From Catenulispora sp. (GTDB lineage: Bacteria > Actinomycetota > Actinomycetes > Streptomycetales > Catenulisporaceae): a DNA stretch of 51,394 nucleotides. Where the stretch lies: positions 1 to 51,394 of the forward strand of contig JABFWL010000200.1 in assembly GCA_013362315.1 (NCBI GenBank), read 5' to 3'. Of this stretch, positions 22,593 to 40,022 are shown piece after piece. How positions within the stretch are numbered: position 1 is the stretch's first letter; each line of letters starts with the position of its first letter. Below the pieces are notes generated by a model that was given only the letters and a program-made list of their open reading frames with translations, was not told where the DNA came from and ran no database searches. The position numbers and the translations under genes were made by a program.

Positions 22593-23243
22593 TCAGCCAC
22601 TGATCAGCAGCGTCGAGGGCAGCTGGGTGAACGATGCGATGATCCGGTCGGCGCCTTCGAACGTGAGCGTTGCCGTCGCGGGGTTGGGGACGGCGACGCA
22701 GTGCAGGCCGGCGGCCTTGGCGGACGTGACGCCAGGGGGCGAGTCCTCGAAGGCGATCGCCGCGCCGGCGCGCACGCCGAGGGCGGCGACAGTCGCCAGA
22801 TAGATGTCTGGCCGCGGCTTCGGCGGGTGGTCATCGCCGCAGGTGATCACGTCGAAGCGATGCCGCACACCGACCCGCTCCAGGTGCCCGAGGACCCAGT
22901 CGGCGGTCGCGCTGGAGGCGACCGCGAGCCGCAAACCGAGCCGGGAGGCCGCGTCGAGGTAGTCTCGGACGCCTTCGCGCAGGCCCTCGGTCTCCAGCGA
23001 AGCGTCCAGCCGTGCACGCCAGCTCTTGCCGACTTCCTCGGCGTCGAAGGACCCGATCTGTTCCCTGAGATACGCCAGCAGTATCGAGTGACTGTCCCGC
23101 CTTCCCACTCCGCTGCGCCAAACGTCCGTTGGCAGGTGCGTGCCCCGCGCTTCGAACTCCGCCTGCCAGGCGCGTAGCGCCGCGGACTCGGTGTCCATCA
23201 GCAGACCGTCGAAGTCGAAGACGAGGGCGGCGGGCGCGCTCAT
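22593..23243 (-). CDS. HAD-superfamily phosphatase, beta-phosphoglucomutase-like
   Basis: The 216-residue protein has all HAD motifs: I in LVFDFDGLLMDTE (nucleophile Asp), II in LAVASSATADWV, III in the Lys of DHPPKPRPDIYL, IV in AFEDSPPGVTSA. The helical cap (QAEFEARGTHLPTDVWRSG) is the C1 type of phosphoglycolate phosphatase and beta-phosphoglucomutase relatives. Its start codon overlaps the stop of the upstream C-A-T synthetase, so it is the last gene of the NRPS operon. It may dephosphorylate a sugar phosphate or phosphorylated peptide intermediate. The operon begins with a glycosyltransferase, which makes a sugar-phosphate role attractive but unproven. Confidence 0.87.
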   Translation of the reverse strand: MSAPAALVFDFDGLLMDTESAALRAWQAEFEARGTHLPTDVWRSGVGRRDSHSILLAYLREQIGSFDAEEVGKSWRARLDASLETEGLREGVRDYLDAASRLGLRLAVASSATADWVLGHLERVGVRHRFDVITCGDDHPPKPRPDIYLATVAALGVRAGAAIAFEDSPPGVTSAKAAGLHCVAVPNPATATLTFEGADRIIASFTQLPSTLLISG

Positions 23244-38040: not shown

Positions 38041-40022
38041 CACAGGCTCCTGCCATCGCGTTGTTGCAGCCGCACTGATGCGCTCGGCTCATAGCCGGTC
38101 TTCCAGAGGTGGGCGAGGATCAGCGGCAGTTCGACCGCGCTGTCGGCGCTCGCCTTCGGTGCGTGCTTGCGCAGTAGATACTGCAGAAGCGGTAGCCGCA
38201 TCGCGTTGCTGCTGCTGAACGTCATCGAGTCGGGATGCCGGCGGTAGTGCTGGCCGACGATCGGCAGGACGTCCGACCGGTATCCGGCGGCAGCCAGGCT
38301 CAGGTATAGATCCCAGTCCTCACAGGCCGGCAGCTCCTCGTCGTAGCCGCCCACCGCCTCGATCGCCTCCTTGCGGAACAGTCCGGTGGCCCTGGCGTGG
38401 GTGTTGAGCACCAGACTCAGGCCCGGCACGTGCCCCACCGGCACGTAGGTGTGGTCGAGCAGACCGAAGTGGTGCACGTGGCCCGTGACATAGGCCAGGC
38501 CGGGATCGCGACGCAGAGCTTGCAGCGCAGCGGCGGCGAAGCCGTCGGGCAGCAGGTCGTCGGCGTCGAGCGGGATGACGTACCGTCCGCTGCCGGCCGC
38601 GATCCCGGCGTTGCGCGCCGCGCTGAGTCCGGAGTTGGGCTGCCGGACCTTGACGACATCCTGCAGCGCGTCGAAGGTTGCGATGGTCTCCGGGTCGGTC
38701 GAACCGTCGTCGACGACGACGATCTCCACCTCCTGCGGGCCACCGGCGCGTACCGACTCGATCGCATCCATCAGGTAGCGCCCTTGGTTCCAGAGCGGGA
38801 TGACGACGGATATGAGATCGGCAGTTTGCGGTGCCGGTGCCGGTGCCGGTGTCGGTGCCGGCGCTGGTGGCGTGCAGCTGCTTCGTCGCGCTTGGTAGCT
38901 CGCGGCGATTTCCGTGGCGGTCGCCCGATCCCGTCCCGTCTCGGCGGCAGCCGCTGCAAGCCGGGCTGCTTTCGTCGGCGAGGCCGCGTTCTCGAGCAAC
39001 ACGGCGGCGAGTTCCCCAGGATCTCCGCAGGGGACTACCCGACCCGTGACACCGTGTACGACCGATTCGGCGGCGGCGGTGCCAGACGAGGCGGTGATCA
39101 CTTGGCCGAGCGCCATGGCGAGCCGCGCTGAGGCAGGACCCTGATGAATCGAACAAGACAGCACACACTGTTTTCCGGGCGGCGGCAGGGAATCGCTCCC
39201 GTCGCGCGGCGGTCCGGCGAAGGTCAGCGCCGTCTTAAGACGCGGGCTCAGGCGCCGCGTCGCGTACTCGAGGTACGAGCGCCCGAACGGATCGCTCTCG
39301 GTGTCCCGCCCGGCGAGGACGAACCGGAACTCAGGGTTCTGGTGGAGCAGTAGCTCCGCTGCCTGCAAAAAAGTCTCGACGCCGGCATCAGGGCGAAGGT
39401 CGCCGAAATGCCAGATGGTGTACGCATCTCCAGCCGTCGCATGGCTCGCCGCGACGGGAGGAGAACTAGGAGGGCAGTACTGCATCCGCCCTCCTCCACC
39501 GTCGATCGCCTCGGCGAGAACGGTCGAGTCGGCGAGTACGACGTCGGCCTGGTCGAGGGCGTACCGCGACATGAACTCGGCGATCGCTTCGTCGAAGTCG
39601 TCGATGTCCCGCGCCCCGGACGTCGCCATGCCTTCCGGACCGGGTCGTACAGCCAGGATGGTCGATGGGAACATCCCGAGGAGCCGCTTGGCCCGGATCG
39701 TCGTGATGGCCTCGGCCGCGGCGAAGTCGATGGCGTCGAGACCCACTTCGTGGCGCAGCTCTGACACGGTCCGGTAGACGCGGTCCGCGTACTCCTGCCG
39801 TTCTGTGAAGTACTGGTGGCCCGCGGGACTCGGCGCCAGCGGCACCCAGGCCGGCCCGCCTCCGGACCGTACTTTCTGCTCCCGGCCTGGGGCCAGTGCT
39901 TCGCAGACCAGATAGACCTGATGACCCGCCCGGCTCATGGCGTCGGCGGCCGAGAAGGTCTGCGCGCCGACCCCGAGGAGATCGTCGACGGCGAGATCCC
40001 GGCAGACGTACGCGATTCGCAC
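38040..40022 (-). CDS. Two-domain glycosyltransferase (GT-B/GT4-like plus GT2)
   Basis: The 660-residue protein is the first gene of the NRPS operon. Residues 1-375 look like a GT-B glycosyltransferase of the GT4 kind: MRIAYVCRDLAVDDLLGVGA, FGDLRPDAGVETFLQAAELL, FRFVLAGRDTESDP and SGTAAAESVVHGVTGRVVP. A Pro-Ala linker (379-395) with a 6-bp DNA repeat follows. Residues 400-640 are a GT-A family 2 domain: SVVIPLWNQGRYLMDAIESV, VVVDDGSTDPETI, LSAARNAGIAAGSG, PLDADDLLPDG (DxD) and a catalytic ED in ACEDWDLYLSL. It may sugar-modify the peptide or its carrier-bound form. No sugar biosynthesis genes are near. The start has a GGGGAAG site. It could also be a cell-surface enzyme that happens to sit upstream. 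Confidence 0.87.
   Translation of the reverse strand: MRIAYVCRDLAVDDLLGVGAQTFSAADAMSRAGHQVYLVCEALAPGREQKVRSGGGPAWVPLAPSPAGHQYFTERQEYADRVYRTVSELRHEVGLDAIDFAAAEAITTIRAKRLLGMFPSTILAVRPGPEGMATSGARDIDDFDEAIAEFMSRYALDQADVVLADSTVLAEAIDGGGGRMQYCPPSSPPVAASHATAGDAYTIWHFGDLRPDAGVETFLQAAELLLHQNPEFRFVLAGRDTESDPFGRSYLEYATRRLSPRLKTALTFAGPPRDGSDSLPPPGKQCVLSCSIHQGPASARLAMALGQVITASSGTAAAESVVHGVTGRVVPCGDPGELAAVLLENAASPTKAARLAAAAAETGRDRATATEIAASYQARRSSCTPPAPAPTPAPAPAPQTADLISVVIPLWNQGRYLMDAIESVRAGGPQEVEIVVVDDGSTDPETIATFDALQDVVKVRQPNSGLSAARNAGIAAGSGRYVIPLDADDLLPDGFAAAALQALRRDPGLAYVTGHVHHFGLLDHTYVPVGHVPGLSLVLNTHARATGLFRKEAIEAVGGYDEELPACEDWDLYLSLAAAGYRSDVLPIVGQHYRRHPDSMTFSSSNAMRLPLLQYLLRKHAPKASADSAVELPLILAHLWKTGYEPSASVRLQQRDGRSL
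38829..38870 (-). repeat. Short GGTGCC-type repeats encoding the Pro-Ala linker
   Basis: About six near-copies of GGTGCC in a row (one GGTGTC, later ones diverged) encode an APAPTPAPAPAP-like linker between the two glycosyltransferase domains. Confidence 0.7.

Follow-up and report, generated by a model that had tools for sequence, protein, structure and literature searches.

What does a nonribosomal peptide synthetase (NRPS) release when its terminal thioesterase (TE) is fused to an exporter? The question is raised by a six-gene operon of a Catenulispora soil bacterium, at positions 22593-40022 on the minus strand of contig JABFWL010000200.1 (C45 of the 7.97 Mb assembly); the window analysed here is this whole contig of 51,394 nucleotides. 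The operon encodes a glycosyltransferase (GT), four NRPS proteins built from condensation (C), adenylation (A) and carrier (T) domains, and a HAD phosphatase, and one of the NRPS proteins, the terminal module, runs through its TE into a major facilitator superfamily (MFS) domain. We find that this TE is akin to those of ObiF1 and SulM. An earlier note on the same DNA, in which this type of TE did not figure, had pointed to a plain acyl-glycopeptide, and the predicted product probably shifts to one released as a strained lactone. The reading that we prefer, and to which we give about an even chance, is an acyl-Gly-X-Ser assembly line whose ObiF1/SulM-type TE is joined to an exporter, with release as a Ser beta-lactone the most likely outcome. 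As an assembly line this is a known kind of system; what is new is the MFS fusion and the alternation of Ser and Cys in the terminal module.

The TE triad, Cys1162-Asp1280-His1310, aligns with Cys1146-Asp1254-His1284 of ObiF1, and Gly1189 aligns with ObiF1 Gly1173 (PMC6668435; this and the other papers cited are drawn on in excerpt). Asp1280 follows the strand formed by model residues 198-203, which puts it at position II, and Gly1189 stands at position I. Among solved NRPS TEs, the excerpted account places an Asp after strand 7 only in ObiF1 and SulM, both of which use a Cys nucleophile and close a four-membered ring (PMC11298585). A search of PDB sequences with the single TE sequence returned ObiF1 first (6.8e-30) and 6vap next (4.5e-20), and a profile built from 33 family TEs returned ObiF1 at 1.1e-38 (136 bits), followed by 6vap, the type II TE BorB, at 1.4e-21 (80 bits), with SulM at 62 bits. 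When an AlphaFold2 model of the TE (pLDDT 81, pTM 0.83) was used as the query for Foldseek, ObiF1 ranked first, SulM chains took ranks 2-5 and RifR came next. Judged from sequence and model, all of the features that we examined for a TE of the strained-ring type are present: the Cys, the Asp at position II with none at position I, a terminal residue whose code predicts a beta nucleophile, and ObiF1 and SulM as the nearest structures.

The same features recur across a large family. Loci were fetched by two TE-region patterns, GHD[IV]G[LV]DE and Y[IV]GAIFPF, outside which the nucleophile, the Asp and the His all lie. These three residues are kept in all 92 full family TEs examined, a set of homologs that includes the window, many near-copies and two identical pairs (L057/L102 and L026/L103); L096, which has no full TE, and five partial TE pieces were excluded from the TE counts. 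The position-I Gly is kept in 91 of the 92, with Ala in that column in L032, and an MFS domain follows the TE in the same frame in 91, the exception being L091, on a contig of 3969 bases. Codes of the terminal A domain, mapped by HMM with position 331 often blank, were interpreted using Stachelhaus positions and code meanings (Ser, Cys, Gly, Asn-like, basic) that we take to be the accepted ones. Eighty-six members have a readable terminal module, with a Ser code in 66, a Cys code in 16 and another code in four; six further members have no readable A domain there. The Cys code, DLYN[ML]SLI, was found in L028, L029, L031, L032, L034-L037, L039, L047, L064, L081, L083-L085 and L095, and 13 of these 16 modules are from Nonomuraea. 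Members with this code are candidate beta-thiolactone assembly lines. A TE that requires a beta nucleophile would explain why Ser or Cys persists in the terminal module while residue X varies, and why the usual exchange is between O and S.

Several points weigh against this interpretation. A Cys nucleophile is not diagnostic, since AB3403 combines it with an Asp at position I, and neither is an Asp at position II, which is found in RifR and other type II TEs as well (PMC11298585). The TE is about 30% identical to ObiF1 and has one additional residue after the nucleophile. The position-I Gly lies within the second of the two fetching patterns, and part of its conservation therefore comes from the way in which the family was fetched. 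A Ser nucleophile was found in 30 of 30 control loci, taken from among many thioesterase matches in relatives, but these controls, for the most part short and type II-like, make a weak comparison. The four terminal codes that are neither Ser nor Cys are DVRNTGIMD (L055 and L062), DLWNMSMI (L025) and DFTKVGHV (L097). The last of these, at 15711-22328 of locus L097 from a Streptomyces clavuligerus plasmid, breaks the Ser/Cys rule with an Asp/Asn-like code and yet retains the Cys-Asp-His triad. Moreover, a TE-MFS tree in which 91 rows were placed has only four changes among the three labels, so that, with homologs and near-copies in the set, the 82 Ser or Cys codes among 86 members are not 82 independent events. 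Lastly, with four C domains the operon has one more than the three predicted amide bonds require, and it shows no obvious gene dedicated to resistance.

Substrates can be proposed from the A-domain codes and module order from fused relatives. As the earlier note had suggested, there is a Gly code (in the C-A-T protein CAT5), a Ser code (in the MFS protein) and a third code that places acidic residues in the pocket (in the C-A-T protein CAT2), from which X is probably basic. The corresponding pattern, D[TA]ED[IV]G, is present in 33 of the 79 related loci with readable A domains among the matches listed, and an Asn-like code, DLTKVGE, in 12, with other codes elsewhere; the fetched stretches end at most 10 kb from the match, which makes the counts for X and Gly lower bounds. 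A single protein carries the Gly module followed by the X module in Planotetraspora, many Nonomuraea, G003 and G012, with the TE-bearing Ser/Cys module on a protein of its own; together with the position of the TE, which is that of the last step, these fusions suggest the order Gly, X, then Ser or Cys.

An acyl starter, loaded by the A-T-C protein, is likely, in agreement with the earlier note: the code of this A domain, NAMFSSYP, is without the amino-acid pocket Asp, and the domain matches acyl-CoA-synthetase models of NCBIfam (below cut-offs), as a homolog on contig C5 of the same genome does in the PDB. In a C-domain tree made by a quick method, the terminal C domain of the A-T-C protein groups with its counterparts in the A-T-C proteins of C671 and S. 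clavuligerus (100%) and sits beside CAT5-type C domains (95%), apart from the C proteins that stand alone in other members. Those members divide the A-T-C functions among an A protein, a carrier and this distant, free-standing C protein; G003 and G012 have a C-T didomain without an A domain, and G003 has E1 alpha and beta subunits and a PIG-L deacetylase nearby. These differences suggest that the acyl end varies within the family and is the least understood part of the molecule. A same-genus homologous cluster (L110, 1-14179) has a C-T didomain without an A domain, together with genes for a PIG-L deacetylase and for 2-oxoacid dehydrogenase E1 alpha and beta, and L060, inspected by eye, seemingly has an E1-like gene too.

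We propose that the FadD-like A domain would load a carboxylic acid onto the T domain of the A-T-C protein, and that the C domains would join the acyl group to Gly (CAT5), then to X (CAT2), then to Ser (MFS protein). The chain would pass to Cys1162 of the TE, and attack of the Ser hydroxyl on the enzyme thioester would free acyl-Gly-X-Ser as a beta-lactone close to the fused MFS domain, by which it may be exported; the GT and HAD proteins would probably tailor the product by glycosylation and phosphate removal. The terminal module resembles that of ObiF (ObiF1) in obafluorin assembly, which is also a C-A-T-TE with a Cys nucleophile, Asp at position II and Gly at position I, and which also has an N-acylated beta-hydroxy amino acid at release. 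Unlike ObiF1, which uses a bulky beta-hydroxy amino acid, has an MbtH-like domain and starts from 2,3-dihydroxybenzoate (DHB), the operon is predicted to use Ser, has an MFS domain after the TE, adds two more chain residues and has an acyl-CoA-synthetase-like starter domain. The Pfam matches of the six operon proteins include no MbtH-like domain, L-Thr transaldolase or DHB-activating A domain, and in these respects the operon differs from an obafluorin-type cluster. The TE of SulM, which releases the monobactam sulfazecin, shares the Cys nucleophile and the Asp at position II; SulM differs in its Dap/sulfamate chemistry and its Gln-Cys-Asn motif (PMC11298585), where the operon has His-Cys-Gly and Ser, and no sulfotransferase is found among the operon's Pfam domains.

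We place second, as an unlikely outcome, that the Cys-TE gives a linear acid or a larger lactone or oligomer, such as a siderophore-like cyclic acyl-Gly-X-Ser trimer, that is exported by the MFS domain. This domain matches Pfam MFS_3, the family of the enterobactin exporter EntS; basic-Ser pairs occur in catechol siderophores; and EntF also uses the Ser hydroxyl, for oligolactonisation (PMC6668435). The terminal module resembles EntF-type Ser modules in being a Ser-activating C-A-T-TE. In the enterobactin system, by contrast, the exporter is a separate protein and the starter is DHB. EntF-type TEs have their Asp at position I (PMC11298585). The acyl A domain is closest to acyl-CoA synthetases, 16 relatives have a Cys code instead of Ser, and no siderophore uptake genes are present among the 18 window proteins scanned with Pfam, which are part of the window's open reading frames (ORFs). 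The operon also lacks the features of catechol siderophore NRPSs that we looked for, namely DHB activation and a Ser-type iterative TE.

It is less probable still that the product is an acylated glycopeptide, with the GT adding a sugar, the TE merely hydrolysing and the GT and HAD proteins carrying out the defining steps. Both genes do belong to the operon, and a GT2 gene and a HAD gene also adjoin the NRPS genes at the paralogous locus on C5 and at Actinacidiphila L033. The window and C5 GTs, however, share an alignable stretch of just 92 residues (36%), and identity between the HAD proteins is 32%; a gene matching either GT of the host genome, of the C5 type where checked, was found at 4 of 80 related loci among the matches listed, the stretches fetched for these 80 loci being often incomplete; and hydrolysis would leave the near-constant Ser/Cys terminal code unexplained. 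The 660-aa GT was seen only at the window locus, with no homolog at E<=1e-60 in nine other same-genus genomes. Least probable, in our view, is a lactam ring formed through the side-chain amine of a basic X or another intramolecular nucleophile, with Ser a mere constituent; the probably basic code described above would suit such a ring, but members whose penultimate module has the Asn-like or another code keep a terminal Ser/Cys nonetheless.

The earlier note had also presented the gene set as one without a known counterpart. The 660-aa GT seems indeed confined to this locus, whereas the NRPS core occurs three times in the host genome, as the window and two paralogous copies, and the TE-MFS protein is found at at least 79 related loci. 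The copy on C5 (L009, 992-18589) consists of a C-like protein of 598 aa, a GT2, a HAD protein, CAT2, a C-A-T-TE-MFS protein, a free A domain, CAT5 and a free carrier protein, so that the A-T-C functions are split; it has close relatives in Actinacidiphila and in a Catenulispora metagenome-assembled genome (MAG). The third copy, with CAT5, A-T-C, CAT2 and MFS proteins, was split in assembly between C384 and C671 (L012, 6930-10674; L010, 1-10949); by eye, C384 ends with the same 87 bases with which C671 begins. Before the core on C384, ORFs resembling a dehydrogenase, a short-chain dehydrogenase/reductase (SDR), a kinase and an aldo/keto reductase were noticed by eye. Identities between the copies are 53-57% for the MFS proteins, 44-48% for CAT2 and 39-42% for CAT5. 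In the TE-MFS tree the window copy groups with G003, a genome of the same genus, and the C5 copy with the Catenulispora MAG (99% each), and the different places of the three copies argue that they are not recent duplicates.

A profile search of the genome contigs with the TE-MFS alignment gave at least 80 loci, 79 of them with a full TE, in Streptosporangiaceae, Micromonosporaceae, Pseudonocardiaceae, Streptomycetaceae and other taxa, and members also lie on large plasmids of Streptomyces clavuligerus and Embleya. Eight of 60 relative genomes, the host included, have a match at E<=1e-120. Two same-genus genomes, G001 and G004, have TE-MFS rows that match the Catenulispora records L057 and L026 exactly. 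A scan of viral contigs gave one generic NRPS match (30% identity), and the MFS region has no relative in the PDB by sequence. Family members share the fused protein, the triad and mostly a Ser or Cys terminal code, and many have Gly and X modules, while their neighbouring genes vary; zinc dehydrogenase and luciferase-like genes, for example, stand beside the Actinacidiphila clusters. In titles and the starts of abstracts among the open-access papers listed, we found no paper describing the C-A-T-TE-MFS family or its product, and a characterised member may exist.

We tentatively suggest, as a possibility that falls short of probable, that this is a widespread actinobacterial family making Ser beta-lactones, and beta-thiolactones in members with a Cys module, in which the TE-exporter fusion allows an unstable warhead to be made at the membrane and to exit at once. 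Beta-lactones acylate active-site residues and are prized as inhibitor warheads, and to our knowledge few NRPS routes to them have been described. If the suggestion is right, the signature of a Cys-TE with Asp at position II, a Ser/Cys terminal module and a fused MFS domain, at at least 79 loci, would turn the single case of ObiF into a class that can be mined; from the Cys-terminal branch one would expect beta-thiolactones, a group for which a 2026 paper, in its excerpted text, claims no precedent among natural products until its own finding (PMC13200230); and the tethering of a releasing enzyme to an exporter would let one examine directly how a producer withstands the reactive compound that it makes.

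Table 1. Genes of the operon and domains of its MFS protein, in order of transcription.
Feature	Position	Strand	Basis and details
GT, 660 aa; GT4-like N half and GT2 C half	38040..40022	-	Pfam Glyco_trans_1_4, Glycos_transf_2
CAT2, NRPS C-A-T; probably basic residue X	34900..38043	-	Pfam; A code DTEDIGTII, by eye and profile
MFS protein, NRPS C-A(Ser)-T-TE-MFS, 1811 aa; terminal module with fused exporter	29468..34903	-	Pfam; A code DVWHVSLVD
TE domain in MFS protein	30899..31681	-	Cys1162 31418-31420; Asp1280 31064-31066; His1310 30974-30976; Gly1189 31337-31339, at the usual Asp site
MFS exporter domain	29534..30796	-	Pfam MFS_1, MFS_3; NCBIfam TIGR00900 below cut-off; 10 hydropathy peaks above threshold
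A-T-C; acyl-CoA-synthetase-like A, T, terminal C	26340..29468	-	Pfam; NCBIfam acyl-CoA-synthetase models below cut-offs; PDB neighbours of C5 homolog
CAT5, NRPS C-A-T; Gly	23240..26335	-	Pfam; A code DILQLGVIW
HAD phosphatase, 216 aa; beta-phosphoglucomutase-like subfamily	22593..23243	-	Pfam HAD_2; NCBIfam TIGR02009 below cut-off

ORFs, Pfam and reading of the junctions bear out six intact genes that overlap or abut with gaps of up to 4 bp, as first described, and Pfam agrees with the architecture given then, including MFS matches in the same protein as the TE. The genes run head to tail from the 40022 end, with 4-bp overlaps, read from the sequence, at GT/CAT2, CAT2/MFS and CAT5/HAD, a 1-bp overlap (TGATG) between the MFS and A-T-C genes, and a 4-bp gap between A-T-C and CAT5; the A-T-C gene starts at the ATG at 29468 rather than with the longer mechanical ORF (31028). 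At about 29400-29468, the N terminus of the A-T-C protein has short PAQIE/PAQT repeat units, likely a linker or docking segment. All four NRPS proteins have HHxxxDG (condensation), GG[HD]SL (carrier) and A3 (adenylation) motifs, so nothing looks decayed. The single candidate promoter reported earlier was not recovered, a sigma-70 scan of 39900-40500 giving no site, and a terminator scan downstream (22300-22700) gave none, although in an actinomycete little can be concluded from such scans. The tight spacing and the 399-bp gap between the operon and the divergent gene at 40422 would be compatible with one transcript.

Carbohydrate hydrolase genes flank the operon and look unrelated to it: a GH62 gene at 21346-22488, a GH95 gene at 40422-43217, and GH2 and arabinofuranosidase genes within 40422-49143. 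A second biosynthetic-looking set lies at 728-10346 and comprises a partial AMP-binding protein with a carrier domain, an SDR, an acyl-CoA ligase and an FAD oxidoreductase.
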